A stretch of DNA of 64,000 nucleotides from Rhodobiaceae bacterium (lineage in GTDB: Bacteria; Pseudomonadota; Alphaproteobacteria; Rhizobiales; Tepidamorphaceae): NCBI GenBank assembly GCA_020441995.1, contig JAGRLC010000006.1:84929-148928 (forward strand), given 5' to 3'. This document shows positions 16,481-40,918 of this stretch, piece by piece. Every line of letters begins with the position of its first letter. The stretch's first letter is position 1. The notes under the pieces were generated by a model that was given only the letters and a program-made list of their open reading frames with translations, did not search any database and was not told where the DNA came from. The position numbers and the translations under genes are program-made.

Positions 16481-17931
16481 CGCGGCTGATCGTCGGACCT
16501 TTCAACCGGGTCGAGGGCGACCTCGAGGTCAAACTCGACATCGCTGACGGAGCGGTCAACGAGGCGCGCGTCGTCTCGGTTCTGTATCGTGGGTTTGAGC
16601 GCATTCTGGATGGCAAACCGCCGTTCGATGCGCTGGTCTACGCGCCGCGCATCTGCGGCATCTGTTCTGTGTCGCAATCGGTTGCCGCCGCCAAGGCGCT
16701 GGCTGACGCCATGGGGCTGGAGCCGCCGCCGAGCGGCCGGCACGCCGTCAATCTGATCCACGCGGCTGAGAACGTCGCCGATCATCTGACGCATTTCTAC
16801 CTGTTTTTCATGCCGGATTTCGCGCGCGCGATTTATGCCGGCGAGCCGTGGCACGCGGACATCGCGGAGCGCTTCACCGCCATCAAAGGCACGGCGGCGC
16901 AGGACGTGCTGCCTGCGCGCGCCCAGTTCATGCATATTCTCGGCATCCTCGCCGGCAAGTGGCCGCATACGCTGAGCGTTCAGCCCGGCGGCTCGACCCG
17001 CGCCATTGCCGCCAATGAGACGGCGCGGCTCGCCGGTATCCTTGCGGCCTTCCGCCGTTTTCTGGAACGCACGCTCTACGGTGACAGGCTCGAGCGCGTA
17101 TCGGAACTGTCATCGGTTGAGGCGCTTGAGAGCTGGGCGGCGGAAAAGCCGCCGGAGAATAGCGACTTCCGCCGCTTCCTGCATGTTTCGCGGGCACTGG
17201 AGCTTGAAAAGCTCGGCGCGTTTTCCGGCCCATGCATGAGCTATGGCGCTTACGCTTACGATGATGGGTATCTGTTTGCGCGCGGGGTTCTCGAGGACGG
17301 CAAGGTTAGCCCGCTCGACACCGGCGCCATTGCCGAAGACCTGAGTCACGCGTGGTACGCGGCCGCCGATGCGCCTCAGTTGCCGTATGACGGCGAGACC
17401 CGGCCCGATGCCGACAATCCCGATGGCTATACATGGTGCAAGGCGCCACGGCTTGGCGGGCGCGTGGTTGAGGTTGGCGCTCTGGCGCGGCAGGCGGTGA
17501 ACGGTCATCCGCTGGTGCGGGAACTCATCGCGCGCGCGGGCGGATCGAACGTTCATGCCCGCGTCGTTGCCCGTGTTATGGAAATCGCGCGCGTCGTTAT
17601 GGCGATGGAGCAGTGGGTTGAGGCGATCGAGCCGGGTGAGCCGTTCATACGCCATGGCGCCATGCCCGACATGGCGCAAGGCTTCGGCCTGACGGAAGCC
17701 GCCCGCGGCTCGCTCGGCCATTGGGCGAAGGTCCGCAACGGTGTGATCGAGAACTACCAGATCATCGCGCCGACCACCTGGAATTTCTCGCCGCGCGACA
17801 GCGCCGGAACCCCCGGCGCGCTGGAGCAGGCGCTTAAAGGAGCGCCGGTGCGCGCGGGCGAGCGAGAGCCGGTCGCCGTCCAGCATATCGTGCGCTCCTT
17901 CGATCCGTGTCTGGTCTGCACAGTGCATTGA
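16477..17931 (+). CDS. hupV: Regulatory hydrogenase large subunit HupV (HoxC)
   Basis: The 484-residue catalytic subunit of the H2 sensor has the L1 motif RICGICSVSQSVAAA near residue 57 and the L2 motif DPCLVCTVH. Translation stops directly after the last His, so there is no C-terminal peptide and HupD processing is not needed. This is diagnostic of the HupUV/HoxBC group. Together with HupU it reports H2 to HoxJ. Confidence 0.97.
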   Translation: MTRLIVGPFNRVEGDLEVKLDIADGAVNEARVVSVLYRGFERILDGKPPFDALVYAPRICGICSVSQSVAAAKALADAMGLEPPPSGRHAVNLIHAAENVADHLTHFYLFFMPDFARAIYAGEPWHADIAERFTAIKGTAAQDVLPARAQFMHILGILAGKWPHTLSVQPGGSTRAIAANETARLAGILAAFRRFLERTLYGDRLERVSELSSVEALESWAAEKPPENSDFRRFLHVSRALELEKLGAFSGPCMSYGAYAYDDGYLFARGVLEDGKVSPLDTGAIAEDLSHAWYAAADAPQLPYDGETRPDADNPDGYTWCKAPRLGGRVVEVGALARQAVNGHPLVRELIARAGGSNVHARVVARVMEIARVVMAMEQWVEAIEPGEPFIRHGAMPDMAQGFGLTEAARGSLGHWAKVRNGVIENYQIIAPTTWNFSPRDSAGTPGALEQALKGAPVRAGEREPVAVQHIVRSFDPCLVCTVH

Positions 17932-17938
17932 GACGCGG

Positions 17939-20275: not shown

Positions 20276-21891
20276 TCTTTGATGTCTTCGAGAATGATTG
20301 CGGCTGCCTTCTCGCCAACCATGATGGCCGGTGCATTCGTGTTGCCTGATGTCAGCGTCGGGAAGATCGACGCGTCCGCGACACGCAGGCCTTCAAGCCC
20401 GTAGACGCGCAGCCGGCTGTCAACGACGTCTTCGCCCGGATTGGGACCCATCTTGCAGGTGCTGACAGGGTGAAAGACGGTGCCGGCGCGCTGGCGGCAA
20501 TCCTCGATCATGTCCTCATCCGTCTGGACCTGCGGTCCCGGCGCGATCTCACACTCGATCAGCCGCGCCATGGCCGGGGCTTCGGCAAAGCGGCGCATGA
20601 GCTGGGAGCACTGCAGCATCTCGTCGATGTCGTGATCGGTCGACATGTAGTTGGGATGGATCGCAGGCGGCTCGAACGGATCGGCGGAACGGATTTCCAG
20701 ATGGCCCCGGCTTGTCGGGCGCGTCGGCTGCGCACCCAGAAGAAAGCCGGAGAAAGGATCGGGGTTCATCAGCGGGCGCTTGCCGGGCGGAGCCTTGGTG
20801 TAGCTCACCGGCGAGTAGAATAGCTGGATGTTGGGACGCTCCTCGCCGGGGCGGCCGCGCACGAAGCCGCCGGCCTGATTGACGCCGAGAGACAGTGGTC
20901 CGCGCCGCGTCAGCACATAGCGCAGGCCATGCCACAGCTTGCCGTACCAGGGATAAAGCTGGTCGTTGAGTGTGGGCACGCGCGAACGGAAGAGATAGTC
21001 GATCGCCAGATGGTCCTGAAGGTTCCGGCCGACGCCCTCGCTGGGATGGACGACGTCTATGCCTTTCTGGCGCAGCAGGTCCGTGGGCCCGACGCCCGAC
21101 AGCTGGAGGAGTTGCGGCGAGTTGACCGCGCCAGCCGACACGATCACCTCGCGCCGTGCGCGCGCTTCGCGCATCATGCCGTGCTGGCTGTAGGCGACGC
21201 CGGCGGCGCGCTTGCCCTCGAACAGGATGCGGGTCGTGAGCGCGTGTTTCTCGATGGCCAGATTGGGGCGTTTGCGGGCAGGGCGGATATAGGCGCGCGC
21301 GGTCGACATGCGCATGCCGTCCTTCGCCGTGTTCTGATAGGTGCCGACGCCTTCCTGCGTCGCACCGTTGAAATCCGGGTTGTGCGCGAACTGCAGTTCC
21401 TCACCCGCACGAATGAAGTCCTGACATGTCGGATGCAGGTCGCGGTCCATGGTCGAGACGTGGACGGGGCCTTCGCCGCCGCGATAGCCGTCGCCGCCAC
21501 GGTCGTTGGTCTCCGACATCTTGAAATAGGGCAACACGCCGTCCCAACCCCAGCCGGGATTGCCCATGGCCTTCCAGTCCTCGAAGTCTTCCTTCTGGCC
21601 GCGGATATAGACCATGGCGTTGATCGAGCTGGAACCGCCCATCACCTTGCCGCGCGGCCAGTAGGAAACGCGGTCGTTCAGTTCCGGGCAGGGCTCGCTC
21701 AGATACATCCAGTTGACGGATTTGCGGTAGAACGTCTTGCCGTAGCCGATCGGCATCCAGATCCAGAAATTCAGGTCGCTGCCACCGGCTTCGAGCAGCA
21801 GCACGGTATACTTGCCGTTCTCGGTCAGTCGGTTGGCCAGAACGCATCCCGCCGAACCGGCGCCGACCACGATGAAGTCGAATTCTGCCAT
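20272..21891 (-). CDS. GMC-family FAD oxidoreductase (choline/alcohol dehydrogenase type)
   Basis: The 539-residue flavoprotein has the GMC layout. It shows an N-terminal dinucleotide fold (FIVVGAGSAGCVLANRL), the GMC signature GKVMGGSSSINAMVYIRG, and a C-terminal active site FHPVSTCKMG with GNTNAPAIM. The family includes choline and long-chain alcohol dehydrogenases; the substrate here is unknown. The start at 21891 (MAEFDF) fits family N-termini; an in-frame ATG at 21930 is the alternative. A copy of the repeated operator-like motif lies 77 bp upstream (21969-21998), placing the gene in the putative MocR regulon. Confidence 0.9.
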   Translation of the reverse strand: MAEFDFIVVGAGSAGCVLANRLTENGKYTVLLLEAGGSDLNFWIWMPIGYGKTFYRKSVNWMYLSEPCPELNDRVSYWPRGKVMGGSSSINAMVYIRGQKEDFEDWKAMGNPGWGWDGVLPYFKMSETNDRGGDGYRGGEGPVHVSTMDRDLHPTCQDFIRAGEELQFAHNPDFNGATQEGVGTYQNTAKDGMRMSTARAYIRPARKRPNLAIEKHALTTRILFEGKRAAGVAYSQHGMMREARARREVIVSAGAVNSPQLLQLSGVGPTDLLRQKGIDVVHPSEGVGRNLQDHLAIDYLFRSRVPTLNDQLYPWYGKLWHGLRYVLTRRGPLSLGVNQAGGFVRGRPGEERPNIQLFYSPVSYTKAPPGKRPLMNPDPFSGFLLGAQPTRPTSRGHLEIRSADPFEPPAIHPNYMSTDHDIDEMLQCSQLMRRFAEAPAMARLIECEIAPGPQVQTDEDMIEDCRQRAGTVFHPVSTCKMGPNPGEDVVDSRLRVYGLEGLRVADASIFPTLTSGNTNAPAIMVGEKAAAIILEDIKD

Positions 21892-21968
21892 CCTTGCCGC
21901 TGCCTCTGCCGGAGCCTTTCGGGTCATCACATGGTCCGCGAACTTAACGCGCTGATTGGTCTGCTCTG

Positions 21969-21998
21969 CATATCCATTTTAAATCGCGGATCATACCA
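21969..21998 (-). promoter_or_regulatory. Bipartite direct repeat, site 1 of 4 (putative MocR operator)
   Basis: Read towards the GMC gene, this is TGGTATG, 15 bp, then TGGATATG, ending 77 bp before its start at 21891. The two TGG cores are 22 bp apart. The site lies in the divergent gap to the DadA-like gene and could serve both. Three more copies occur at 29132, 30472 and 31999. Confidence 0.7.
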
Positions 21999-22116
21999 CT
22001 GAGGTTAGCCCAGCATTGCGGTGCTGGCCTGTCAGGCATGACAGAATGGCTATGCCGCGCGGATGGATTTGTTGCTAGCCAAGGCATGGCGCATGAAGCA
22101 CCGCGAGGAGAAAAAA

Positions 22117-23358
22117 ATGGCACGATCCGCTCTGATTGTCGGCGCCGGCATCACCGGAGTAAGCACCGCGATCTGGATGCTGCGCGACGGCTGGAGGGTA
22201 ACGCTGGTCGATCCGGTTGAGCCGGGCAGCAGTGGTCAGACCTCGTTCGGCAATGCGGGGCTGATCGCGCGCACATCCATGATCCCCGTCGCCACGCCGT
22301 CGATGGTACTCAAGGCGCCGTTGATGGTCTTCGATCCGCATTCGCCGCTGTTCCTGCGCTGGTCCTATCTGCCGCGCCTGCTGCCGTGGCTGTTGCCCTT
22401 CATGCGCAATGCCACAGAAGCGAGAATGAGGGAGGTTGTTCCGCATCTCTCGATGCTGATTTTCGATGCGAGTGAGCAGCATCTGGCGGTGAGCCAGGGA
22501 ACCGCAGCCGAGAAGCACATCGCCAAGGGCGACTATATCACGCTCTACAACCGTCAGTCCGATTATGAGGACGACACGCTTACGATCGAACTCAGGCGGC
22601 AGTTCGGCCTTGAGCCCGTTTCGCTGACGCGGAAAGAACTCCTTGAGCGCGATCCAAATCTTGGACCGTCCTACACGTTCGGCACAATGTTCAGCGATTT
22701 TCACTGGCTCACATCGCCGGCGAAATATGTTGCGGCCCTCTTCGAGCACGCCTGCTGCGAGGGCGCAGTGTTCAAGCAGGGCAGCGTCGTTGCGCTTGCC
22801 CCGGGCGAGACGCCATCGGTCACGCTGCAAGGCGGCGAAACGCTAAGCGCGGACAAGGTCGTTCTGACAGCCGGCGCTTGGTCCGGCAAGCTCGCAGGCA
22901 CCATGGGCAAGGCGACGAAAGTGGAGGCGGAACGGGGCTATCATGTCTCCATGTATGCGCCGAACTTCACCGCGCCGGTGCCTTACATGGTCACGGACGC
23001 AAAGTGTGTGGTGACGCCGATGGACGGCTTCCTGCGCGCGGCCGGCGTCGCGGAATTCGCAGGGCTCGATGCGCCTGCCGCCAAGGCGCCGATACGCATG
23101 ATCGAGGCGGCGGTGAAGCGGGTCTATCCGAACCTCACGTTCGAGCGTTCCGAACCCTGGATGGGCCGCCGCCCGACAATGCCGGACAGCCTGCCTGCGG
23201 TTGGCGAGATCGATGGCGCGCCGAACGTGATCCACGCCTATGGCGGACAGCATGTCGGCTTGACCATCGGGCCGAAGCTAGGACGCTGGGTCACCGATCT
23301 TGCCAACCGGCGTCCGGTGAATGTCGATCTGTCGGCTTTCAAGCCGGACCGGTTCTGA
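22117..23358 (+). CDS. DadA-like FAD-dependent amino-acid/amine dehydrogenase
   Basis: The 413-residue protein belongs to the DAO superfamily. It has an N-terminal FAD fold (ALIVGAGITGVSTAIWML) with an acidic strand end (VTLVD) and a C-terminal GAPNVIHAYGGQHVGLTIGP segment that closes the flavin site. The relatives oxidise D-amino acids or N-substituted amino acids. The start at 22117 follows GAGGAG by 6 bases; earlier in-frame starts lack such a site. It is divergent from the GMC gene and converges with the cupin gene 2 bp away. The substrate is unknown. Confidence 0.88.
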   Translation: MARSALIVGAGITGVSTAIWMLRDGWRVTLVDPVEPGSSGQTSFGNAGLIARTSMIPVATPSMVLKAPLMVFDPHSPLFLRWSYLPRLLPWLLPFMRNATEARMREVVPHLSMLIFDASEQHLAVSQGTAAEKHIAKGDYITLYNRQSDYEDDTLTIELRRQFGLEPVSLTRKELLERDPNLGPSYTFGTMFSDFHWLTSPAKYVAALFEHACCEGAVFKQGSVVALAPGETPSVTLQGGETLSADKVVLTAGAWSGKLAGTMGKATKVEAERGYHVSMYAPNFTAPVPYMVTDAKCVVTPMDGFLRAAGVAEFAGLDAPAAKAPIRMIEAAVKRVYPNLTFERSEPWMGRRPTMPDSLPAVGEIDGAPNVIHAYGGQHVGLTIGPKLGRWVTDLANRRPVNVDLSAFKPDRF

Positions 23359-23360
23359 GT

Positions 23361-23726
23361 TCAGGCATCAGGCGAAGCGCTGATCACATAGAGCTTGCGC
23401 ATATGCTCGTGGATCACCCATTCGCCGGTCCATCCCTGCGGCAGCACCAGCAGGTCGCCGGGACCGATGTCCTTTGTGCCCGAACCATCCGCATTGGTCA
23501 CCGAAGCCCGGCCCGAAATGATGTGGCAATACTCGCCCGCAGCCGTGCGGTCGGCGGTGAAATGGCCAGGCGTGCATTCCCATACGCCGATCTTTGTGCG
23601 CCCGTCGGCTGAGGTGAACAGCGTCGCGGAGGCTTCCTTCTGCCCTGGTGTCAGGGTGGTAGGCTTGTCAGCGAACGCGCCGAGTGGCGTCGTGGCGAGG
23701 TTGGCGAAGGTTTGGAGCGGGATCAT
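23361..23726 (-). CDS. DUF861 (cupin_3) small cupin
   Basis: The 121-residue single-domain cupin has the DUF861/EutQ-like pattern VWECTPGHF ... YCHIISGRASV ... PGDLLVLPQGWTGEW. Such cupins recur in amino-acid and amine catabolic operons and are often of unknown activity; some relatives are ureidoglycine aminohydrolases. Its ATG overlaps the stop of the upstream ABC permease, so it is the last gene of the ABC operon. The role here is open. Confidence 0.85.
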   Translation of the reverse strand: MIPLQTFANLATTPLGAFADKPTTLTPGQKEASATLFTSADGRTKIGVWECTPGHFTADRTAAGEYCHIISGRASVTNADGSGTKDIGPGDLLVLPQGWTGEWVIHEHMRKLYVISASPDA

Positions 23727-24547
23727 TTCGGTGTCTTCTTCTGGCCGAAGATTTGCGCGAGCACCATCATGCCCGTGGTCACCAGGATCATGATGGTCGA
23801 GATCGATGCGATGGTTGGATCAATCTGATCCCTGAGTGAATTGAACATGTTGCGTGTGAGCGTCGGGTTGTCGCCGCCGGAGATGAACATGGCGACAACG
23901 ACCTCGTCGAAAGAGGTCAGGAACGACAGCAGTGCGCTTGTCACCACCGCGAAACGGATCTGCGGCAGCGTGACCGTGAGGAAGGCTTTCCATCGCGGCG
24001 CGCCGAGGCTGCGCGCGGCTTCTTCCTGCGCCATGTCGAAGCTCTTCAGCGCCGCGCCCGTGACGATGACGACCAGCGGCAGCGCCAGAACCGTATGCGC
24101 CATCACGAGGCCGGTGACGGTGTAGAGAATGCCTAGCTGCACATAGGTGTAGAAGGCGCCGATCGCGACGAGCACAAGCGGCACCATCATCGGCGTAATC
24201 ATCAGCACGAATGCCGCGCGCACGAAGCGTATGCTGGAGGCATGCAGGCCGTAAGCCGCAAGCACGCCGGTCGGTGTCGCCACCAGCATCGTCAGGAAGG
24301 CGGCCTGGAAAGATGTCCGCGTCGCCTGCATCCATTCGTGCGAGCCGAAATAATTGTCGTACCAGCGCGTCGACCAGACTTCCGGCGGGAACTCGAGATA
24401 CTGGCTGTCGGAAAACGACATCGGGATCACGATCAGCGTCGGTATGACCAGCAGGGTCATGATGACGATAGCCAGCGCATAGAGCCACAGGCGCTGGCCG
24501 TGGCTGACCTGCGTTTCCGTTGCGGGGGACTTCAGCCACTTTAGCAT
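23723..24547 (-). CDS. ABC transporter permease, PotC/PotI type
   Basis: The 274-residue inner-membrane permease belongs to the polyamine/opine-type (PotC) group. It has six hydrophobic segments and the EAA loop AQEEAARSLGAPRWKAFLTVTLPQI, which docks on the ATPase. The start at 24547 overlaps the stop of the first permease (TGATG) and has GGGAGG upstream. It forms the importer together with the two genes before it and the binding protein at 26612-27652. Confidence 0.93.
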   Translation of the reverse strand: MLKWLKSPATETQVSHGQRLWLYALAIVIMTLLVIPTLIVIPMSFSDSQYLEFPPEVWSTRWYDNYFGSHEWMQATRTSFQAAFLTMLVATPTGVLAAYGLHASSIRFVRAAFVLMITPMMVPLVLVAIGAFYTYVQLGILYTVTGLVMAHTVLALPLVVIVTGAALKSFDMAQEEAARSLGAPRWKAFLTVTLPQIRFAVVTSALLSFLTSFDEVVVAMFISGGDNPTLTRNMFNSLRDQIDPTIASISTIMILVTTGMMVLAQIFGQKKTPK

Positions 24548-25440
24548 CAGTGACCTCCCGCCGTGATGCTTTCCAGCTTCAGGAAGCGCGAGGCGACCCA
24601 CAGGATCGCGAAAGTCATGACCAGCAGCACGACGCCGAGCGCGCTGGCTGCGCCCCAGTTCACGAACAGCTCGATGTTGGAGACGATCTTCATCGAGACC
24701 ATGATGACCTTGCCGCCGCCAAGCACCGCCGGCGTGACATAGAACCCGAGGCACAGGATGAAGACCATCAGCGCGCCGGCGAACAGGCCCGGTGTCGTCA
24801 GCGGGAAGAAGACGGTCCAGAACGCCCGCTTCGGTGTCGCGCCGAGGTTCGATGCTGCTTTCATGAAGTCGCGGTCGATGGCTTTCATCGAGCCGTAAAC
24901 GGGAAGGATAAGGAACGGTAGCATGATGTGGACCATGCCGATCAGCGTTCCGTTCATGTTGTGAACGATCTTGATCGGTTCATCCCACAGGCCGGCGGAT
25001 ATCGCCCACTCGTTGACCAGGCCGCGCTTCTGCAGCAGCACCAGCCAGGCATAGGTGCGCACCAGCAGCGAGGTCCAGAACGGCAGTAGCACGGTGATCA
25101 TGCACAGGTTGGCGAGTTTGGGCGGAAGCTGCGCCATGAAATAGGCGAGCGGATATCCGATCAGAATGCACAGCAGCGTGGTCAGGATGCTGACCTGAAA
25201 GGTGGTGATGAAAATGCGGTAATAGGCCTTGCTGTCGAGCATGCGCGCGTAGTTCTCGAGCGAGAACTGCCCGTCCGCGCCGACGAAGGAGACGTAGAAA
25301 AGCCAGCCGACCGGAATGGCGAGAACGACCAGGATGATCAGCATGGCGGGCGAGGCGAGGCCGAAGAGCTTGAGCCGCTCCAGCGCGCCGTCCTTGCGCA
25401 GGCCGGCTTCGTTCATGCGGCTGGTTTCAACGGCGGCCAT
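24547..25440 (-). CDS. ABC transporter permease, PotB/PotH type
   Basis: The 297-residue membrane permease of the polyamine/opine-type ABC family has a short cytoplasmic N-terminus, six predicted helices and the EAA motif in KAASNLGATPKRAFWTVFFPLT. The gene lies 1 bp after the ATPase gene and overlaps the second permease. The paired PotB/PotC arrangement is standard for importers of putrescine, spermidine or related cations. Confidence 0.93.
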   Translation of the reverse strand: MAAVETSRMNEAGLRKDGALERLKLFGLASPAMLIILVVLAIPVGWLFYVSFVGADGQFSLENYARMLDSKAYYRIFITTFQVSILTTLLCILIGYPLAYFMAQLPPKLANLCMITVLLPFWTSLLVRTYAWLVLLQKRGLVNEWAISAGLWDEPIKIVHNMNGTLIGMVHIMLPFLILPVYGSMKAIDRDFMKAASNLGATPKRAFWTVFFPLTTPGLFAGALMVFILCLGFYVTPAVLGGGKVIMVSMKIVSNIELFVNWGAASALGVVLLVMTFAILWVASRFLKLESITAGGH

Positions 25441-25441
25441 G

Positions 25442-26530
25442 TCAGTCCTCGCTGCCGTCGATGAGCACTGTGTCTTCCGGCGCGAGGCTGAGCGTCACCG
25501 TGTCGCCGACCGTCGGCATCTGCGCGAGTCTGTCGCCGCGCACCGCGCCGCGCATGACGATCTGGTTGCCGTCGGGCAGGCGGGCATGGAGCAGGAAGCT
25601 GTCGCCCTGATAGACGACGTCCGTAGCGGTCGCCTTGAAATTGTTGCTTGTGCCAGCAGGCCTGCCGGATGACAGCACGATCCGTTCGGGCCGGATCATC
25701 AGCAGCAGGTTGTCCGTGTCGGGCGGTGGTGTATCGAACTTCAGCGCCTTGCCCTCGTAGAGAACCTTCTTGCCCTGCCGGGTGACGCTCAGGAAGGTGG
25801 ACTCGCCAATGAAGTCGGCGACGAAACGGTTGGCCGGGCGCTCGTAGAGATCGCGCGGTGTGGCAAGCTGCATGATGCGGCCATGGTTAACCACCGCGAT
25901 GCGGTCCGACATGGTCAGCGCCTCGCGCTGGTCGTGGGTGACGTAGACCGTTGTCATGCCGAGCTGTTCGTGCAGGTGCCGCAGCTCGATCTGCATCTGG
26001 TCGCGCAGCTTCTTGTCGAGCGCAGACAGCGGCTCGTCCATCAGCAGGATGCGCGGTTCGAAAACGATGGCGCGGGCAACCGCGACGCGCTGGCGCTGTC
26101 CGCCCGAAAGTTGGTCGATGCGCCGGTTGCCGTAGCCGGCGAGTTGCACGGTGGCGAGCGCTTCTTCGACGCGTCTGGCGATCTCGTCCTTCGGCACCTT
26201 GCGCAGGCGTAGCGGGTAACCGACGTTGCCGTTCACAGTCATATGCGGAAACAGTGCGTAGGACTGGAACGTCATCCCGACATCGCGCAGATGCGGCGGG
26301 GTGCGGATGACCTCGCGGTCGCCGAATTTCAGACTGCCGCAGTCGGGCCGGGTGAAGCCCGCCAGTACCATCAGCAGCGTCGTCTTGCCGGACCCCGACG
26401 GCCCCAGAAGCGTAAGGAATTCGCCGCTTTTCACGTCGAGCGAAACGTTGTCCAGCGCATGGACGGGACCATAGGTCTTGGTCACGTTCCTGATGGTGAT
26501 AGGCAGGGCGCCGTTGCTGTCGATGCTCAA
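25442..26530 (-). CDS. ABC transporter ATP-binding protein, PotA type
   Basis: The ATPase of the importer (about 362 residues) has Walker A GPSGSGKTT, Q-loop TFQSYALFPHM, signature LSGGQRQRVAVARAI, Walker B ILLMDEP and a C-terminal TOBE domain as in PotA. The frame is open to an ATG at 26587, but that ATG lies inside a 12-bp hairpin (26559-26586). The TTG at 26530, just before the conserved ITIRNVTKTYG, is therefore preferred, with modest certainty about the exact start. Confidence 0.92.
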   Translation of the reverse strand: MSIDSNGALPITIRNVTKTYGPVHALDNVSLDVKSGEFLTLLGPSGSGKTTLLMVLAGFTRPDCGSLKFGDREVIRTPPHLRDVGMTFQSYALFPHMTVNGNVGYPLRLRKVPKDEIARRVEEALATVQLAGYGNRRIDQLSGGQRQRVAVARAIVFEPRILLMDEPLSALDKKLRDQMQIELRHLHEQLGMTTVYVTHDQREALTMSDRIAVVNHGRIMQLATPRDLYERPANRFVADFIGESTFLSVTRQGKKVLYEGKALKFDTPPPDTDNLLLMIRPERIVLSSGRPAGTSNNFKATATDVVYQGDSFLLHARLPDGNQIVMRGAVRGDRLAQMPTVGDTVTLSLAPEDTVLIDGSED

Positions 26531-26558
26531 AACTGTTCTCGCCTGCTGTCGGTTCAGG

Positions 26559-26586
26559 TGCGGCGGGCGCAGCAGCGCCCGCCGCA
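26559..26586 (-). promoter_or_regulatory. Intercistronic hairpin between binding-protein and ATPase genes
   Basis: A perfect 12-bp GC-rich stem (TGCGGCGGGCGC and its complement) with a 4-nt loop and no T run follows the binding-protein stop by 25 bp. Such stems commonly protect the 3' end of the binding-protein mRNA and lower expression of the downstream membrane genes. That role is inference. Confidence 0.7.
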
Positions 26587-26611
26587 TGGTTTCATGCCAG
26601 TGACCACAAGG

Positions 26612-27652
26612 CTATTCGGTCAGCATTTCCTGATACATCTCGGCGGCCTTGGCTTCCCACTTGATGTACCAATCAAGCGAGATCGGCAGTTGCTTGGCAG
26701 CGTTCTCCGGAGAGGACGGCAGGCCGGCTGCGACTTCCGCGGTGATCTCGCCGGTATCGTAGGCGGCTTTGTTGGTCGGGCCGTAGGTGATGTATTTCGG
26801 CAGATCGTCCTGGTACTCGGGCTTGGAGATCTCGGCCAGGAACTGCATCGCGACGTCCTTGTTGGGCGCGCCCTTCGGAATCGCGAAGCAGTCGTAATCG
26901 AGCAGCGCCTGGTTGAAGCTGTACTTCACCTTGCCGCCGTCCTTGGCCGCGTTGTCGAAGCGGCCGTTCCAGCCGGTCGTCATGTCGACTTCGCCGTCCT
27001 TCATCAGCTGCGCATGCTGCGCGCCCGACGACCAGAACACGTCGATATGGGGCTTCAGTTCGCGGATCTTGTCGATCGCGCGCTTGATGCCTTCCTCGCT
27101 GTCGAGAACCTTGTAGACGTCCTCTGGCGCGACGCCGTCGGCCATCAGCGCCGGCTCAAGCGCACCGGCAACCTTGCCGCGATAGGCGCGCTTGCCGGGG
27201 AACTTCTCGACATCCCAGAAGTCGGCCCAGCTCTGCGGGCCGTTGTCGCCATAGGTCTCGGTGTTCCACGCATAGACGGTGGAGAACACGTCGCCGCCGA
27301 CGCAGTATTTGGAGTAGAGGTTGGGATAGAAGGTGGATACGTCGATAACGTTGTAATCCAGTTCCTCGAGAAGGCCGTCGGCGCCGGCGCGCGCAGCGGA
27401 GCCCGAGCCGCTGGCGACGATATCAAGCGTGACCGCGCCGGTTTCCACCTGCAGCTTCACGTCCGACATGCCGCCATAGGTTTCCTGCTTAACCTTGACG
27501 CCGGTGTTGGCTTCGGCGGGTTCGAAAAGCGCCTTGCTCTGCGCTTCCTGATAGGAGCCGCCCCATGAGGCGATGGTGACCTGTTTTTCTTGGGCAACAG
27601 CGGCGATGGCGATCATCGCGGCCGTCAGGCTGAGTGCTATTTTCAGTTTCAT
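26612..27652 (-). CDS. Periplasmic substrate-binding protein, PotD/PotF-like
   Basis: The 346-residue binding protein of the ABC importer has a Sec signal peptide (MKLKIALSLTAAMIAIAAVAQ). The mature part opens with VTIASWGGSYQEAQSKA, the first strand of the spermidine/putrescine-type family. GAGGAG lies 7 bases before the start at 27652. The ligand cannot be read from the sequence. The neighbouring amine oxidase and DadA-like enzyme suggest an amine or N-substituted amino acid. It is the first gene of the ABC-cupin operon. Confidence 0.91.
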   Translation of the reverse strand: MKLKIALSLTAAMIAIAAVAQEKQVTIASWGGSYQEAQSKALFEPAEANTGVKVKQETYGGMSDVKLQVETGAVTLDIVASGSGSAARAGADGLLEELDYNVIDVSTFYPNLYSKYCVGGDVFSTVYAWNTETYGDNGPQSWADFWDVEKFPGKRAYRGKVAGALEPALMADGVAPEDVYKVLDSEEGIKRAIDKIRELKPHIDVFWSSGAQHAQLMKDGEVDMTTGWNGRFDNAAKDGGKVKYSFNQALLDYDCFAIPKGAPNKDVAMQFLAEISKPEYQDDLPKYITYGPTNKAAYDTGEITAEVAAGLPSSPENAAKQLPISLDWYIKWEAKAAEMYQEMLTE

Positions 27653-27733
27653 CTCGTTCTCCTCTCTGTTTTTCGTTTTGTTACGGCATATTCCGTTCGT
27701 GCCGGATGGCCGGGCCACCCGGTGAATTTCTCG

Positions 27734-29050
27734 TCAGACGGCTTTCGCCGCCCGGCGGCATTGCATGTCGTCGATCCAGCGGTAGTAGGCGACCGCGCCC
27801 GGCAGGAACCATGGGCTGCCGGTGTAGAACGGTCGCGTCGGGTTGGGCAGGTCGTCGAAAGCGGTTGCGCCTTCCTTCAGGCCGAGCACTTTCTGGCCCG
27901 CGCGCATCCCGAGATACCCCGCCATCGACACGCCGGACCCGCAGTAGCCGAGCGCATAATGCACACCGTCATGCACGCCGGTGTGGGCCAGTTCATCGAA
28001 TGTGTAGGCGACGATGCCGCTCCACGAATGCGAGATCGCGCAGCCTTCAAGCTGCGGGAAGATGCGGCACATGCTGTCGTAAAGGCGCGGCGTGCTGGCC
28101 TGGGTGTCGGTTTCGCGCGCCGAGACCCGGCCGCCGAAAACGATCCTGCGCCGGTCGGGTGAGGGGCGATAGTAGTAGATTACCTTGCAGGTGTCGCAGG
28201 CGATCCGGTTGGTGGGAAACAGTTCGTCGATGAGTGCCTCGGGCAGTTCCTCGGTGGCGATGATATAGCTGCCGATGGGGATCACGCGGCGTTGGATCCA
28301 TGGAACCAGCCCCGCCGTGTAGCCATTGGTGGCAACGACCACGTCACGGGCGCTGACGACACCCTTCCGCGTCGCGACCTTGAAGCCGGTACCGGCCTTC
28401 TCGATCGACAGGGCGGCGCAGTCTCCGACCACCTCCGCGCCTGCGTCGAGAGCGATGCGCAGCAATTCGCGATGCAGTTTCGCCGGGTGAACCGAACAAT
28501 ACTCGGTGAAAACAACGCCGCCGAAATAGACGTCCGAACCAAGCTCCGTGCGCTGCTCGGAATGCGGTACGGCGAAGCTTTCGATACCTTCTTGCTTACG
28601 CACCGTCTCGGCATCGCGCACCAGCGCTTCGTAGTGCCGCGGCGTGTGGGCCGCATGATAGCGGCCAGAGCGGCGGAAGTCGCAATCGAGGTTTTCGCTG
28701 GAAACGAAGCCGCCGAGCCATTCCAGTGCGGCGCGGCCTTCGCCGCGGATGGCGTGGGCCTTCCGTTCCCCGAATTTCGCGGTCAGCTTGGCAAGCGAGG
28801 GTTTGACGCTGGTGCTGATATGCCCGCCATTGCGGGTGCTGCATCCAAAGCCCGGATTGGCGGCGTCGATGATCAGCGTCGAGCGGCCGCCGCGCGCCGT
28901 CTCAATCGCCGCGTTGAGGCCGGTATAGCCCGATCCGATGATGAGGACATCGACGGTTTCAGGAGGTATTTCGGAAATGTCCGGAACGTCCCCCAACTGG
29001 TCATGCCAGTAAGGATGCTGGTGTGCCGCAACTGTCGTTTTGCGAGGCAT
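27734..29050 (-). CDS. FAD-dependent amine oxidase, PuuB/OrdL-like
   Basis: The 438-residue DAO-superfamily enzyme resembles gamma-glutamylputrescine oxidase. Features are an N-terminal His/Trp-rich segment, the FAD fold VLIIGSGYTGLNAAIETARGG, NGGHISTSVKPS, and a C-terminal HYALGYCGSGVSMAGYLG flavin-site loop. The start at 29050 has GGGAG 6 bases upstream; an ATG at 29056 sits directly on that site. A copy of the operator-like repeat ends 81 bp before the start. The enzyme probably deaminates the imported amine to an aldehyde, which the local aldehyde dehydrogenase could use. Confidence 0.88.
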   Translation of the reverse strand: MPRKTTVAAHQHPYWHDQLGDVPDISEIPPETVDVLIIGSGYTGLNAAIETARGGRSTLIIDAANPGFGCSTRNGGHISTSVKPSLAKLTAKFGERKAHAIRGEGRAALEWLGGFVSSENLDCDFRRSGRYHAAHTPRHYEALVRDAETVRKQEGIESFAVPHSEQRTELGSDVYFGGVVFTEYCSVHPAKLHRELLRIALDAGAEVVGDCAALSIEKAGTGFKVATRKGVVSARDVVVATNGYTAGLVPWIQRRVIPIGSYIIATEELPEALIDELFPTNRIACDTCKVIYYYRPSPDRRRIVFGGRVSARETDTQASTPRLYDSMCRIFPQLEGCAISHSWSGIVAYTFDELAHTGVHDGVHYALGYCGSGVSMAGYLGMRAGQKVLGLKEGATAFDDLPNPTRPFYTGSPWFLPGAVAYYRWIDDMQCRRAAKAV

Positions 29051-29131
29051 CAACATCTCCCAACGCCACGGCGGGACACTCCCCCGGAGTGGAAACAGGT
29101 TAAAACGTTAGGTCAGCATTGGTCCCATGCT

Positions 29132-29161
29132 CATATCCAATTTAACAAAAGGACCATACCA
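29132..29161 (-). promoter_or_regulatory. Bipartite direct repeat, site 2 of 4 (putative MocR operator)
   Basis: Read towards the PuuB-like gene it is TGGTATG-N15-TGGATATG, with both half-sites identical to site 1. It ends 81 bp before the start at 29050. The base context AAT before the first TGG is shared with site 3. Confidence 0.72.
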
Positions 29162-29200
29162 ATTCTGGGTGACCGCCGTGCGGCGGCGCCATGGCAGATC

Positions 29201-30400
29201 CTACAGAAGGTCCGCCAGCGCCTGCGGCATCCAGTGGGTCTCGCGGCGGCTCGCCTTGAAGAAGCAGCGCCCATATTTCTCCAAAGCCTTGTGGTCGATT
29301 TCGAAGCCAAGTCCCGGCGCCTGCGGCATGTCGAACCAGCCGCGGTCATGCATCATCGGTTTCATCATGATGGCATCGCGTCCATGCGGAACCCAGCCGG
29401 GTTCATTAAGCGGATATTCGAACACCATCTCGCCGGCGAAGCCGCTGGCGGCGAAGACATGCGCGTTGGCGATAAAGCCGAAACCGTTCGACCATGTATG
29501 CGGAGAGAACTTCACTCCGGCTTCGTGGCAGACCCTGGCGACATCCAGGCTCTGCTTGATACCGCCGGCCCACATGGCATCGGGCTGGTAGATGTCGTAG
29601 CAGCCCATTTTCACCATGCGGGCGAGCTCGCGATAACCCATGACGTGCAATTCCCCGCCGGCAATCGGCACGCGCGAATAGTCTCTCAATTGAGCCATTT
29701 CCTCGTGCCACTCGCCGAAGAGGGGCTCCTCCACCCAGGCCAGTTCCACATCGGCGGCGGCATCGGCGAAACGCTTTGCGCGTTCAAGCGACCACTTCGG
29801 CGCGTCGGCAAGCTGCGTCAGGCGGAAGGCCTGATTGCAGTCGACGGAGATCTTCATCCGCCCCTGCATGTAGGTCGCGATATCGCTTATGTGTTCGATG
29901 TCGACCTTTTCATCCCAGTCGTGGACGCGAATCTTCATCGTGTCGAAGCCTTCGGCAAGGCGCTTCTCGGCTTCCTCGCGGCGCTCCCCGGGGTCGCGGA
30001 TCTCTCCTGACGATGCGTAGAGCCTGAGGCGATCGTCGGTGCCGCCGAGCAGCTTGTAGACCGGAAGGCCGGCATTCTTGCCCTTGATGTCCCAAAAAGC
30101 GGGTTCCAGCCACCAGTTGAAATTGCCTCCGACCGCCAAGATGTGTATGCGCTCGCTTAAACGTTCGATGTCTTCCGGATCCTGTCCCAGAAACAGCCCT
30201 GCAAGGTTGTCGCCCAGCCCGGCTCGCTCTCGGCCCGCACCGGTGAAAGCGCTCCAGCCTTCCACGCCGTCATCGGTTATGAAGCGGACGAGATAGAAAG
30301 AGACCGTGTGCCTGACGAGGCCGGGCATCCAGCTTGGCGCGAACGGCGCGGGCAGGGGCGCGTTCACATGATAGAGTTCGATGCGATCGATAACTTGCAT
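29201..30400 (-). CDS. Mandelate racemase/muconate lactonizing-type enolase-superfamily enzyme (first copy)
   Basis: The 399-residue enzyme of the mandelate-racemase subgroup shows, in order, the KxR motif (TMKIRV), metal ligands in SVDCNQ, VEEPLF and AGGELH, then the Asp (YQPDA) and His (SPHTWSNG) general-acid/base pair. Members dehydrate acid sugars or epimerise hydroxy and amino acids by removing the alpha-proton. The substrate is not predictable here. The start at 30400 follows AAGGGA. A fourth copy of the operator-like repeat ends 71 bp upstream. Confidence 0.88.
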   Translation of the reverse strand: MQVIDRIELYHVNAPLPAPFAPSWMPGLVRHTVSFYLVRFITDDGVEGWSAFTGAGRERAGLGDNLAGLFLGQDPEDIERLSERIHILAVGGNFNWWLEPAFWDIKGKNAGLPVYKLLGGTDDRLRLYASSGEIRDPGERREEAEKRLAEGFDTMKIRVHDWDEKVDIEHISDIATYMQGRMKISVDCNQAFRLTQLADAPKWSLERAKRFADAAADVELAWVEEPLFGEWHEEMAQLRDYSRVPIAGGELHVMGYRELARMVKMGCYDIYQPDAMWAGGIKQSLDVARVCHEAGVKFSPHTWSNGFGFIANAHVFAASGFAGEMVFEYPLNEPGWVPHGRDAIMMKPMMHDRGWFDMPQAPGLGFEIDHKALEKYGRCFFKASRRETHWMPQALADLL

Positions 30401-30471
30401 TGCCGGTCCCTTCCCGAACGCCATGCGGCTGTTTGTATGCGGCAAACCTAGGAGGGGAATGGCCTGCTGCT

Positions 30472-30501
30472 GATAGCCATTTCCGCAAAACGATCAGGCC
30501 A
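30472..30501 (-). promoter_or_regulatory. Bipartite direct repeat, site 4 of 4 (putative MocR operator, divergent copy)
   Basis: Read towards the enolase-superfamily gene it is TGGCCTG-N15-TGGCTATC. It differs from site 1 by two substitutions in the first half-site and two in the second, but keeps the exact 15-bp spacing and the TGG cores. It ends 71 bp before the start at 30400 and lies just past the end of the regulator gene. Confidence 0.6.
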
Positions 30502-30504
30502 ATA

Positions 30505-31983
30505 TCAGCTCAGCGCCGGCAGGCCGCACAGGACCTTCATGCCGCGCCTGATGTCTTCCGGCGCGGCGGTGCCGAAGCCCAGCACCAGACCTGATTGACT
30601 GATGGGGCTAAGGCAATAACGGCTGAGAGGGGCGAGGACGACGCCTTTTTCCGCTGCTTGCGCGACGGCCGTGTGCTCGTCGATGCCCGGCGCCAGATCG
30701 GCATGGGTATGAAAGCCGCCGATGGTTTCGTGCAGGCGGATGCTGCCGGGCAGGGAGCGGCCTGCTTCCATCAGCGCTTCGTAACGCGCCTTGTAGAGCC
30801 GGCGCATCATCCGGATATGCGTTGCGAAGTGACCTTCGTCCATGAAGTCGGCGACGATGGCCTGCGTCGCGGTTGAAGGCACGCTTGCCCAGAGCTGGAA
30901 CATCCGGTCGAAGGCCGCGATCATGCGTTCGGGCACGAGGATGAAACCAAGCCGCAGCGAGGGGAACAGCGACTTGGAGAAAGTTCCGACATAAAGAACG
31001 CGGCCCTGCGTATCCGTGCCGTAGAGGGCCGGTTGGGCGACGTTGCCGTAGTAGAACTCGCCATCGTAGTCGTCTTCTATGATGAGCGCTTCAGAGGCTT
31101 CGGCGGCTTTGAGAAGTTCGAACCGTCTTTGAAGCGACATGACATGGCCGAGCGGCTGCTGGTGCGACGGGGTCACGAAAGCGAGCCGGAAGCCGGGCGC
31201 CTTTGCGAGGCCGTCTGAAACCACAAGCCCTTCGCTGTCGACATCGACCGGCACCATCTCCGCGCCTTCCGAAACGAGCGCGTTGCGTGCGCCGGAGGCG
31301 CCGGGATTTTCCATCCAGACCTTGCTGCCGGGGTTCAGGAACAGCCGCCCGATCAGCGAGAAGGCGTGCTGTGCGCCGCAGGTTATGAAGATCTGCTCGG
31401 CGTTGCACTTAATGCCCTTCATGGCGCCGAGATGGGTCGCGATCGCGCGGCGCAGGGCCTCGAGCCCCTTCGGCTGGCCGTAGCCCATGACCGCGCCACG
31501 CTCACCGCGCAGGTGGCGGGCGGACAGCCGCGCCCAATGCGCCATGGGAAAGGCGTCGAGCGCTGGCAGCGCCGTGACGAAGGCGCGCGCTTCATGCGGC
31601 AGCCAGGTGCGGCGGGCGTAATCGTGCTCACGCGCGGTGACGATGCCGGACAGGCGCGGCGCATCGTCCTTGGGCGGTTCGTCGATGTTGGCAGGCGCGG
31701 GCGTGCGTTGATGCTCCAGCGTCTCGCTGACATAGGTGCCGGCGCCGACACGGCTGACCACCATGCCCTCGGCTGCCAGCCTGTCGATGGCGTCGATCAC
31801 TGTTGTGCGCGATACCCCGGTTTCGCGCGCCAGCGTCCGCGTTGCGGGCAGGCGCTCGCCGGTGCGCAAGCCGCCCGACAGGATGATGTCGCGCAACGCC
31901 ATGTAGAGCTGGACGCTGATGCTGCGGCGCGAATTGCGATCCAGATTGATCGCGCTCAACAAGGCGCCGGATGCCTGCTTCAC
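30505..31983 (-). CDS. MocR/GabR-type transcriptional regulator (GntR HTH fused to an aminotransferase fold)
   Basis: The 492-residue protein fuses an N-terminal GntR winged helix (about 15-85: SVQLYMALRDIILSGG, LPATRTLARETGVSRTTV) to a fold-type-I PLP domain. The PLP-lysine region is YVGTFSKSLFPSLRLGFI, and IIEDDYDGEF carries the cofactor-binding Asp. MocR proteins bind direct repeats and respond to PLP adducts of amines or amino acids. The start GTG at 31983 has GGAG 7 bases upstream; an in-frame TTG at 32010 would lie inside the site at 31999-32028. It is divergent from the second enolase-family gene and is the likely regulator of the island. Confidence 0.93.
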   Translation of the reverse strand: MKQASGALLSAINLDRNSRRSISVQLYMALRDIILSGGLRTGERLPATRTLARETGVSRTTVIDAIDRLAAEGMVVSRVGAGTYVSETLEHQRTPAPANIDEPPKDDAPRLSGIVTAREHDYARRTWLPHEARAFVTALPALDAFPMAHWARLSARHLRGERGAVMGYGQPKGLEALRRAIATHLGAMKGIKCNAEQIFITCGAQHAFSLIGRLFLNPGSKVWMENPGASGARNALVSEGAEMVPVDVDSEGLVVSDGLAKAPGFRLAFVTPSHQQPLGHVMSLQRRFELLKAAEASEALIIEDDYDGEFYYGNVAQPALYGTDTQGRVLYVGTFSKSLFPSLRLGFILVPERMIAAFDRMFQLWASVPSTATQAIVADFMDEGHFATHIRMMRRLYKARYEALMEAGRSLPGSIRLHETIGGFHTHADLAPGIDEHTAVAQAAEKGVVLAPLSRYCLSPISQSGLVLGFGTAAPEDIRRGMKVLCGLPALS

Positions 31984-31998
31984 GGCAATCTCCGAAAT

Positions 31999-32028
31999 TG
32001 GTCTGTACAAGTTCGCTAAATGGATATT
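31999..32028 (+). promoter_or_regulatory. Bipartite direct repeat, site 3 of 4 (putative MocR operator)
   Basis: On the + strand TGGTCTG-N15-TGGATATT ends 62 bp before the start of the enolase-superfamily gene at 32091. Its other end lies 15 bp from the regulator's own GTG at 31983, so binding could also control the regulator gene itself. Confidence 0.7.
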
Positions 32029-32090
32029 CTAACTATGCCAATTTTCCAACAGCCTCACACAAAGCCAAGAATACGTCCGGGTGAGAGACC

Positions 32091-33194
32091 ATGAAGCTCA
32101 AGACGATCGAGACCTTTACCAATGAATTCGTCTGCTTCGTGCGCGCCACCGCCGAGGATGGTTCGCAAGGCTGGGGGCAGGTCGCGCCCTACTACGCAGA
32201 CATCACCGCGCAGGTGGTGCACCGGCAGGTCGCGCCTTACGCGCTCGGAATGGACTGTTTCGACATCGACGCGATCCTCGAACTTGTCCGCGACCGCGAG
32301 CACAAGTTCCCCGGTTCATACCTGCGCCGCGCCATGGGCGGCGTCGATACCGCGCTGTGGGATATGCGCGGCAAGATCGAGGGCAAGCCGGTCTGCGAGC
32401 TGATCGGCGGCTCGCCGGGCACGTTCCGCGCCTATGCCTCATCGATGAAACGCGACATCACGCCGGAAGACGAAGCCGAACGGTTTATCCGGCTGCGTGA
32501 CGAGTTCGGTTTCGATGCCTTCAAGTTCCGCGTCGGGGCCGAGGTCGGCCGCGACCGTGACGAATGGCCGGGACGCACCGAGGAGATCGTGCCAACGATC
32601 CGCAAGGCGCTCGGCGACGACGTGGCGCTGCTGGTCGATGCGAATTCCTGCTTCTCGCCGGGGCGCGCAATCGAGGTCGGTCATCTGCTGCAGGACCATG
32701 GCATCTCTCACTATGAGGAACCGTGCCCCTATTGGGAGTTCGAGCAGACCAAACAGGTGACGGACGCGCTCGACATCGATGTCACCGGCGGCGAGCAGGA
32801 CTGCATGATGGCGAACTGGAAGGGCATGATCGATGGCAGGATCGTCGATGTGCTGCAGCCCGATGTCCTGTATCTCGGCGGCATCTCGCGCTCGCTCAAG
32901 GTCGCCCGCATGGCGGAGGCAGCCGGCATGCCCATCACGCCGCACGCGGCGAACATGTCGATGGTGACGATTTTCACCATGCACCTGCTGAGATCGATCC
33001 CGAATGCCGGCAAATATCTGGAATTCTCGATCGAGGGGCTGGATTATTATCCTTGGCAGGATGGGCTTTACACCTCCGACCCTTATGTGATCACGGACGG
33101 CAAGGCGACCGTGACCGATGCACCAGGCTGGGGCGTCGAGGTCAGCCCGGAATGGCTGGACAAGGCCAGCTACCAGATCAGCACCGCTGAGTAG
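32091..33194 (+). CDS. Mandelate racemase/muconate lactonizing-type enolase-superfamily enzyme (second copy)
   Basis: The 367-residue member of the mandelate-racemase subgroup shows KFR (AFKFRVG), metal ligands in LVDANS, YEEPCP and GGEQD, and the Asp/His pair in LQPDV and TPHAANMS. It is clearly different from the first copy at 29201-30400 in length and motif context, so it is not a recent duplicate. It starts the two-gene unit with the aldehyde dehydrogenase 18 bp downstream and is divergent from the MocR gene. A GGTGAGAG site precedes the ATG. The substrate is unknown. Confidence 0.88.
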   Translation: MKLKTIETFTNEFVCFVRATAEDGSQGWGQVAPYYADITAQVVHRQVAPYALGMDCFDIDAILELVRDREHKFPGSYLRRAMGGVDTALWDMRGKIEGKPVCELIGGSPGTFRAYASSMKRDITPEDEAERFIRLRDEFGFDAFKFRVGAEVGRDRDEWPGRTEEIVPTIRKALGDDVALLVDANSCFSPGRAIEVGHLLQDHGISHYEEPCPYWEFEQTKQVTDALDIDVTGGEQDCMMANWKGMIDGRIVDVLQPDVLYLGGISRSLKVARMAEAAGMPITPHAANMSMVTIFTMHLLRSIPNAGKYLEFSIEGLDYYPWQDGLYTSDPYVITDGKATVTDAPGWGVEVSPEWLDKASYQISTAE

Positions 33195-33212
33195 CCCAGG
33201 ACGGAGTGGATC

Positions 33213-34691
33213 ATGAATATTGAGGCGATACTCGCAGGCAAGCCTGTCGAAGGGCTGCCCGGGGGCCACTTCATTGCGGGCAAGTTTACCCCGTCCGCTG
33301 GCGGCGTCACTATGGAAAGCTTCGACGCCGGGCGCGGCGCGGCTTTCGCAACATTTGCCGCCGGCACGGCGGAAGATATCGACCGGGCGGTGACAAGCGC
33401 GCGCCAGGCGTTTCAGACCGTGTGGCGCGATACCGCGCCTGCCGAGCGCGGGCGTATCCTGACCCGCGCGGCGCAAATGATCCGTGCGGATGCCGAACGC
33501 ATCGCAATCGTCGAAAGCATCGACAGCGGCAAGCCGCTCAACGAGGCGCGCGGCGATGTGAACGGCGCGGCGCGCGCATTCGAGTATTACGCCGGCGCCT
33601 GCGACAAGCTGCAGGGCGATACCTTCCCGCTGCCGCGCAACTATCTCGGCTACAGCGTCTACGAGCCGGTCGGCGTCAGCGCCCAGATCATCCCGTGGAA
33701 CTTCCCGATTTCGACAGCTGCGCGCGGCATCGCGCCAGCGCTTGCGGCGGGCTGCACGGTCGTCGCGAAGCCGGCGGAGACGACGCCGTTCTCGGCGCTC
33801 CTGCTGGCCGAGCTGCTGTCGAAGGCCGGACTGCCGGACGGTGTCTGCAACGTTGTGACCGGGACGGGCAGGGAAGCAGGCGCGCCGCTCGTCGCCCACC
33901 CCGGTATCGACCAGATCACCTTCACCGGCTCCGTCACAACGGGGCAGGCGGTGATGCGGTCGGCCGCCGATCATGTCACCCGTCTGGTGCTGGAGCTTGG
34001 CGGCAAGTCTCCGGTCGTCGTGCTGGACGATTGCGACCGGGAAAGCGCGCTGACCGGCGTTCTCGGCGCAATCTACGAACATGCCGGCCAGATCTGTTCG
34101 GCCGGGTCGCGGCTGGTGATCGAACGCGGCATTCACGATACCTTCGTCGAGCAGCTTTCAAACCGCGCGCGTCAGCTTTCCATGGGCCATGGGCTGCGCG
34201 ATCCCAAGCTTGGCCCGGTGAATTCGGCGGAACATCTCGCCAAGATCGGCGGTTTCATCGACCGGGCGCGTGACCGCGGCGCGGAGATCGTTACCGGCGG
34301 TGCGGCGGCAACCGATCCGGAGACGGGGCTGGGCTGGTTCTACGAGCCGACCATCGTCGGAAACCGTCCGCCGGACGATGAATTGGTGCGTGAGGAGGTT
34401 TTCGGGCCCGTCCTGACGGTGCAGATCGCGGATGATCCCGAACACGCCCTGGCGATGGCGGCGGATTGCCAGTACGGCCTGGTCGCGGGAATCTACACCA
34501 GTAATATCTCCAACGCGCTGCGGATGGCGCGCGATATCGATGCCGGGCAGATTTTCATCAACGAGTATTTCGCCGGTGGCATCGAAGTGCCCTTCGGCGG
34601 CAACAAGCTGTCCGGCTTTGGCCGCGAGAAGGGCATTGAGGGCCTGAAGAGCTATTGCAAGCTCAAGAGCGTTGTCGCGCGCGTGGATTGA
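33213..34691 (+). CDS. NAD(P)+-dependent aldehyde dehydrogenase
   Basis: The 492-residue enzyme of the betaine-aldehyde/amino-aldehyde dehydrogenase type has the catalytic Cys295 in HAGQICSAGSRLVIE and the general-base Glu in LELGGKSP. Cofactor-site segments are IIPWNFPI, KPAETTPFSA and TFTGSVTTG, and EVFGPVL lies near the end. It follows the second enolase-family gene on the same strand with an AGGACGGAG-like site. It probably oxidises the aldehyde made by the amine oxidase of this island, which is inference from context. Confidence 0.93.
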   Translation: MNIEAILAGKPVEGLPGGHFIAGKFTPSAGGVTMESFDAGRGAAFATFAAGTAEDIDRAVTSARQAFQTVWRDTAPAERGRILTRAAQMIRADAERIAIVESIDSGKPLNEARGDVNGAARAFEYYAGACDKLQGDTFPLPRNYLGYSVYEPVGVSAQIIPWNFPISTAARGIAPALAAGCTVVAKPAETTPFSALLLAELLSKAGLPDGVCNVVTGTGREAGAPLVAHPGIDQITFTGSVTTGQAVMRSAADHVTRLVLELGGKSPVVVLDDCDRESALTGVLGAIYEHAGQICSAGSRLVIERGIHDTFVEQLSNRARQLSMGHGLRDPKLGPVNSAEHLAKIGGFIDRARDRGAEIVTGGAAATDPETGLGWFYEPTIVGNRPPDDELVREEVFGPVLTVQIADDPEHALAMAADCQYGLVAGIYTSNISNALRMARDIDAGQIFINEYFAGGIEVPFGGNKLSGFGREKGIEGLKSYCKLKSVVARVD

Positions 34692-38583: not shown

Positions 38584-38604
38584 GTAGACCGTCAATTCCC
38601 GGCG

Positions 38605-39429: not shown

Positions 39430-39458
39430 GGCGTGCTCCTGCCGGCGCTCAAGTCACA

Positions 39459-40754: not shown

Positions 40755-40918
40755 TTTCGCCTTATGTTGCGCCAGCATGCCGCATCATCAATCGCTATTT
40801 TGCGGGAGAATGCCCCGGTCTTTCCGTATCGGCAAGCCTCACATCGGACTTGCCGCGCTTTACGCGCAAGTGTCGCCACAATGCATCAGTGGTCAGATGG
40901 TCATTGCAGCGGGCCGGT

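Follow-up and report, generated by a model that had tools for sequence, protein, structure and literature searches.

A predicted three-box operator of a MocR-type regulator and its putative regulon in a catabolic gene island of a Rhodobiaceae bacterium

A gene island of a Rhodobiaceae bacterium (20272-34691 of the window, that is, of the 64,000 nucleotides at positions 84,929 to 148,928 of the forward strand of contig JAGRLC010000006.1) encodes several oxidases, an ATP-binding cassette (ABC) transporter, two enolase-superfamily enzymes, an aldehyde dehydrogenase (ALDH) and a MocR/GabR-type regulator, and similar direct repeats stand before several of its genes (Table 1). This raises the question of whether the repeats are operators of that regulator and how they would act. 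An earlier note on this DNA had proposed four 30-bp sites, each a bipartite direct repeat 62-81 bp before a start codon. When the window was scanned with the two-box pattern TGG(T/C)(A/C)TG-N15-TGG(A/C)TAT, all four were recovered in place with zero mismatches, each one base shorter than proposed because the pattern spans 29 bp, and a fifth exact match that had been overlooked was found at 22025-22053. The TGG cores lie 22 bp apart at all five sites, as had been described for the four, and the distance to the likely starts (21891, 22117, 29056, 30400 and 32091) is 63-78 bp, inside the range given in the earlier note. The fifth site, on the plus strand, faces the gene of a DAO-family oxidase, whose ATG at 22117 has a Shine-Dalgarno-like GAGGAG before it; the site is backed by its exact two-box match, its place, its orientation and a TAGCCA at the −10 register.

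These five are also the only exact matches to the two-box pattern in the organism's own assembly (3.19 Mb in 172 contigs, 75% complete), so that a genome-wide scan adds no exact match to those of the island, and the reversed pattern gives none in the same assembly. When three mismatches are allowed, 15 matches are found in the window versus 15.3 expected; loose matching at this chance level is therefore useless, and exact or matrix matching is needed. The exactness of the match is what carries the two-box signal.

Reading onward from box 2, an inverted NNRCCA box follows at a constant distance in four of the five window sites, with 17 bp from the first base of the second TGG to the first base of its CCA. 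The predicted operator is more than the bipartite direct repeat proposed earlier: it consists of three boxes, direct-direct-inverted, with the consensus AATTGG(T/C)(A/C)TG-N12-AAATGGATAT-N9-RCCAATT, and distant relatives have TGGACCT at box 2. Most relatives show the same three-box layout in the divergent gap between mocR and the gene for enolase-superfamily enzyme 2 (enolase-2), with unrelated spacer bases. A matrix was built from the mocR/enolase-2 promoter sites of 14 relatives alone, the window sequence being excluded, and its four highest scores in the window (31.0 to 50.9 bits; Table 1) fall on the four sites of the earlier note. The next score, 17.4, is the site at 29120 read on the opposite strand, and 100 block shuffles had maxima that average 3.6, the largest being 15.0 bits. 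That the sites arose by chance, or as copies of one duplicated promoter, draws on their small number in one genome and on the chance-level result with three mismatches; this explanation is practically negligible, since the boxes and the −10 element alone are shared while spacers and flanks show no relation, whether inside one genome or from one genome to another, and since exact matches occur only in the island. It is counted as refuted by the matrix ranking together with the 27-genome scan and the orthologue matches described below. In one MocR subclade (L024, L027, L028 and L031), boxes 1 and 3 of the mocR/enolase-2 gap have decayed while (T)TTCGAAAGTGGACCT is retained, apparently through a rebuilding of the operator.

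The candidate binding protein is the product of mocR, which carries PF00392 (GntR) and PF00155 (Aminotran_1_2) on a single protein (Pfam), an N-terminal winged helix joined to a domain like the fold-type-I aminotransferases, and aligns over its full length with GabR (4n0b), including the FSKSL motif, whose lysine is the one that binds pyridoxal phosphate (PLP). Its GTFSKSLFPSLR aligns with GTFSKSLLPGLR of GabR. For most close relatives the alignment begins at about residue 8-10 of the long open reading frame. The protein was not filed under any of three NCBIfam models. The best of them, rhizopine MocR (NF052281), gives 430.4 bits, below its cut-off of 650, and GabR (NF052285) gives 255 bits against a cut-off of 600; PdxR (NF052282) exceeds its cut-off (389.9 versus 320 bits), yet no pdx gene of PLP metabolism occurs among the island genes scanned. 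The operator of enolase-2 begins 16 bp upstream of the probable start codon of mocR, which makes autoregulation of mocR probable.

The operator follows this regulator across genomes. The three-box pattern, with one mismatch allowed, was run over 27 genomes, namely the organism's own and 26 that encode relatives of this MocR; it gives 42 matches, spread over 21 of them, and the reversed control gives none. The spacing of the boxes, which the earlier note had expected to be conserved, is retained in relatives, and one extra base between boxes 1 and 2 brings the 26 genomes down to background (6 matches versus 4 in the control). Fifty genomes with more distant MocRs yield 8 three-box matches versus 7 in the control, and one of the 8 looks genuine (Roseibium album, 54.3 bits). 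Within the order of the window's organism (297 genomes), a three-box match occurs in 13 of 21 MocR-positive versus 39 of 276 MocR-negative genomes (Fisher p = 2.5e-6, a guide only, as the genomes are related). At least seven of the MocR-negative matches repeat, almost unchanged, a single stretch that translates by eye to WHRGTKEMDLILGP and looks like conserved coding sequence. L130 (G013:C21) and the single matches in G019, in G026 and at G002:C6:374520 resemble background and were excluded as targets. Pararhizobium sp. ih9 carries two separate mocR/enolase-2 islands (L131 and L132), each with its own operators; the boxes of these paralogous regulators are nearly identical, and cross-talk between them may occur.

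The best trans evidence for the predicted regulon is the gene for enolase-superfamily enzyme 1 (enolase-1) where it is not linked to the island. In Pseudoruegeria and Roseibium polysiphoniae this gene lies on a different contig from the island, and a zero-mismatch three-box operator precedes it by about 50-90 bp. When 32 genomes and afterwards the 297 genomes of the order were searched, eight orthologues of enolase-1 were found in addition to the window's own (68-80% identical). All eight have an operator match at the expected place (nine of nine with that of the window), six of them scoring 25-50 bits, the two unlinked ones included. The genes recurring around mocR at 33 loci are those for enolase-2 (29), the GMC oxidoreductase (27), the PuuB-like oxidase (25) and a Pot-type ABC transporter, together with ALDH (12), cupin (7), the DAO-family oxidase (5) and enolase-1 (5), and the gene preceded by the operator varies by lineage among enolase-2, PuuB, GMC, the substrate-binding protein (SBP) and enolase-1. 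Roseovarius mucosus and Roseibium aggregatum are culturable relatives in which this island is present as well.

With this, the sites are very probably operators of the MocR encoded at 30505-31983 and would form one regulon. As the earlier note had it, this regulon would join the GMC enzyme, a DAO-type amine oxidase, both enolase-superfamily enzymes and ALDH; its four targets stand, and their number rises to five or more, to which mocR itself, abutted at its 5′ end by the site at 31999, is added. The regulon would thus comprise five outward promoters, those of enolase-2/ALDH, of enolase-1, of the PuuB-like oxidase with the ABC transporter and cupin, of GMC and of the DAO oxidase, besides the probable autoregulation.

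How the operators would act is suggested by their phase relative to the promoter. Of 60 distinct sites, 24 carry a TA...T core at an offset of 12 bp from the first C of box 3, and 36 do so when C may replace the first T (YA...T); the neighbouring offsets have 8 and 3, and no other offset exceeds 3 (7 for YA...T). In a hand-picked alignment comprising 19 promoters other than those of enolase-2, the three −10 positions have T in 19, A in 17 and T in 19. No conserved −35 was found 17 bp before the −10 across the 60 sites, and a full sigma-70 consensus promoter occurs nowhere in the island, where 2.8 would be expected. Boxes 1, 2 and 3 lie near −63, −41 and −24, and the predicted leaders computed from the −10 positions are about 29-44 bases for all five window genes. 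Transcription starts, predicted about 12 bp beyond the first −10 base, would fall near 21935 (−), 22088 (+), 29098 (−), 30438 (−) and 32062 (+). A −10 in fixed phase and without a conserved −35 suggests that activation depends on MocR; box 3, placed in the spacer, would be the handle for repression. In the absence of inducer, MocR would hold box 3 between −35 and −10 and exclude RNA polymerase; an amine substrate would react with the PLP of MocR, upon which the dimer would take the direct pair and substitute for the missing −35 contact. Such a switch, drawn from the promoter geometry together with the published behaviour of GabR and TauR, has about an even chance of being right.

Its main rival keeps the same operators and regulator and makes MocR purely a repressor relieved by inducer, the missing −35 then reflecting weak conservation. 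Box 3 in the −35/−10 spacer and box 2 beside the −35 are indeed classical repressor positions, and EnuR, which regulates ectoine catabolism and belongs to the MocR/GabR group, is described as a repressor (PMC8739950). However, −35-like conservation is missing throughout the sites, the island lacks a sigma-70 consensus promoter, the fifth promoter has no box 3, and direct repeats at −41 and −63 occupy the positions of an activator. Pure repression is a real possibility, if at less than even chances.

As for what the regulon would serve, the island genes may import and degrade a polyhydroxylated or opine/Amadori-like amine: the oxidases would release the amine, ALDH would form the acid, and the enolase-family dehydratases would act on it. 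This substrate class is put forward tentatively. MotA, to which the SBP is nearest, is an opine binder; assignment of the substrate from the SBP was set aside, as binders of γ-aminobutyric acid (GABA), agropine and polyamines match as well. The GMC enzyme is nearest to a chloramphenicol-inactivating oxidoreductase and to choline dehydrogenase, and enolase-2 is very close to the structures 3t8q, 3u4f, 3tcs and 3t9p, whose function is uncharacterised. In its fullest form, the proposal is a switch built into the promoter, in which direct boxes near −63 and −41 replace the −35, an inverted box inside the spacer brings repression and a swap of the dimer from boxes 1 and 3 to boxes 1 and 2 flips the regulon, in the service of an undescribed opine/Amadori-like amine pathway with two orphan enolase-superfamily enzymes; taken as a whole, it is speculative.

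Several points weigh against the main interpretation, from operators to substrate. First, the fifth site, without box 3, scores below 8 with the three-box matrix, and the two weakest enolase-1 matches (12.2 and 13.8) are inside the shuffle range. Second, 8 of the 21 MocR-positive genomes of the order have no match at one mismatch, for which more diverged sites or missing pieces are offered as explanation. Third, the genome G162 has a zero-mismatch three-box operator (G162:C3:314937-314978) and no MocR above the cut-off. Its regulator may have been overlooked in the first search; G123, of the same genus, does carry a MocR. Fourth, the activation/repression switch is read from geometry and the operators are themselves predictions, and the substrate is a guess, given an SBP that resembles the opine binder MotA and also GABA and polyamine binders. 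The case of G162 bears on a further explanation, in which the repeats are bound by a regulator encoded outside the island, or are the signature of a promoter family, with mocR a mere neighbour. Sequence alone cannot name the binding protein, which leaves room for this explanation; it is nevertheless highly improbable, because the site tracks this MocR clade through Alpha- and Betaproteobacteria and is at background level where a genome carries other MocRs, because it sits in the mocR/enolase-2 divergent gap of most relatives, and because MocR sites typically show this layout and a TGG core (PMC5320631).

The predicted MocR operator can be placed among known systems. In Bacillus subtilis GabR, to which the full-length protein match including FSKSL was found, the half sites are ATACCA, the reverse complement of the box-1 TGGTAT; its direct repeats are spaced longer and its targets are GABA genes. 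TauR of Rhodobacter capsulatus, an activator of taurine genes, uses TGGAC-core direct repeats, CTGGACYTAA (PMC5320631), near the TGGACCTTA of box 2 in distant relatives here, and has other target genes. Rhizopine MocR of rhizobia has two direct moc-boxes, AAAGYGGYTCT, 13 bp apart (PMC10107442); it differs in box sequence and spacing, an inverted third box is not reported for it, and the NCBIfam score of the present protein is below the cut-off of that family. The direct-direct-inverted layout is the commonest among MocR operators (32% of regulons), which have TGG/TGT cores and spacing by whole helical turns (Suvorova and Rodionov, 2016, PMC5320631). Two direct boxes and one inverted, a TGG core, spacing constant within an orthologous group, and regulons in which oxidoreductases and transporters are encoded close to the regulator are all shared with that class, the third box standing at constant spacing in most relatives and in all window sites except the fifth. 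The main text of that study names neither this orthologous group nor its consensus or catabolic gene set. A literature search on the enolases, the gene cluster, the regulon and the consensus, which left RegPrecise and the supplements of PMC5320631 outside its range, found nothing specific. The earlier note had called the operator apparently new; its kind is known, and the specific consensus and regulon are apparently undescribed.

Table 1. Predicted operators, −10-like elements and genes of the island (window coordinates)
Feature	Position	Strand	Remark
Operator of GMC oxidoreductase, three-box	21957-21998	−	exact two-box match 21970-21998; matrix 31.0 bits
Fifth operator, two direct boxes, without third	22025-22053	+	exact match
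Operator of PuuB-like oxidase/ABC transporter/cupin run, three-box	29120-29161	−	exact two-box match 29133-29161; 40.0 bits
Operator of enolase-1, three-box	30460-30501	−	exact two-box match 30473-30501; 34.0 bits
Operator of enolase-2/ALDH, three-box	31999-32040	+	just upstream of divergent mocR; exact two-box match 31999-32027; 50.9 bits
−10-register TAGCCA, DAO oxidase promoter (fifth site)	22076-22081	+	CTAG with T-A at expected register
−10-like TAACGT, PuuB-like promoter	29105-29110	−	fixed phase
−10-like CAGCCT, enolase-2 promoter	32050-32055	+	YA...T at offset 12 from box-3 CCA
GMC (choline-dehydrogenase-like) oxidoreductase	20272-21891	−	
DAO-family (D-amino acid dehydrogenase-like, DadA-like) oxidase	22117-23358	+	
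Polyamine/opine-type ABC transporter and Cupin_3 gene	23361-27652	−	
Cupin_3 gene	23361-23726	−	
ABC transporter permeases	24547-25440 and 23723-24529	−	
ABC transporter ATPase	25442-26587	−	
ABC transporter SBP	26612-27652	−	
PuuB-like DAO-family amine oxidoreductase	27734-29056	−	first of six-gene run
Enolase-superfamily enzyme 1 (MR_MLE)	29201-30400	−	
mocR, MocR/GabR-type regulator (GntR winged helix and aminotransferase fold)	30505-31983	−	likely start GTG 31983
Enolase-superfamily enzyme 2 (MR_MLE)	32091-33194	+	
ALDH	33213-34691	+	same strand, downstream of enolase-2

The island was probably acquired by horizontal transfer. In the tree, the window MocR is nested in a roseobacter clade together with those of Pseudoruegeria and Maritimibacter (support 100/99); it is 79% identical to that of Pseudoruegeria, and the relatives from its own family, about 60% identical, have their place elsewhere. 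It is this grouping with Rhodobacterales, not with its own family, that suggests transfer; the G+C content of the island (62.8%) does not differ from that of its surroundings (63.3% for the window). Beside the island, at 15455-20275, the translations read as sensory-hydrogenase-like small and large subunits and a HypF-like gene, preceded by a PAS/histidine kinase-like gene (14119-15474). At 36661-40778 of the window they read as CHASE2/adenylate-cyclase-like, FecR-like and TPR/beta-barrel proteins in a row.

For an apparently unnamed MocR group of Alpha- and Betaproteobacteria, the predicted operator gives an exact, testable code. It ties the function-unassigned enolase-superfamily structures to defined oxidases and a transporter, with which growth and reporter screens could then reveal the substrate, and the three boxes, in constant phase with the −10, would offer a clean system for studying activation and repression by MocR.

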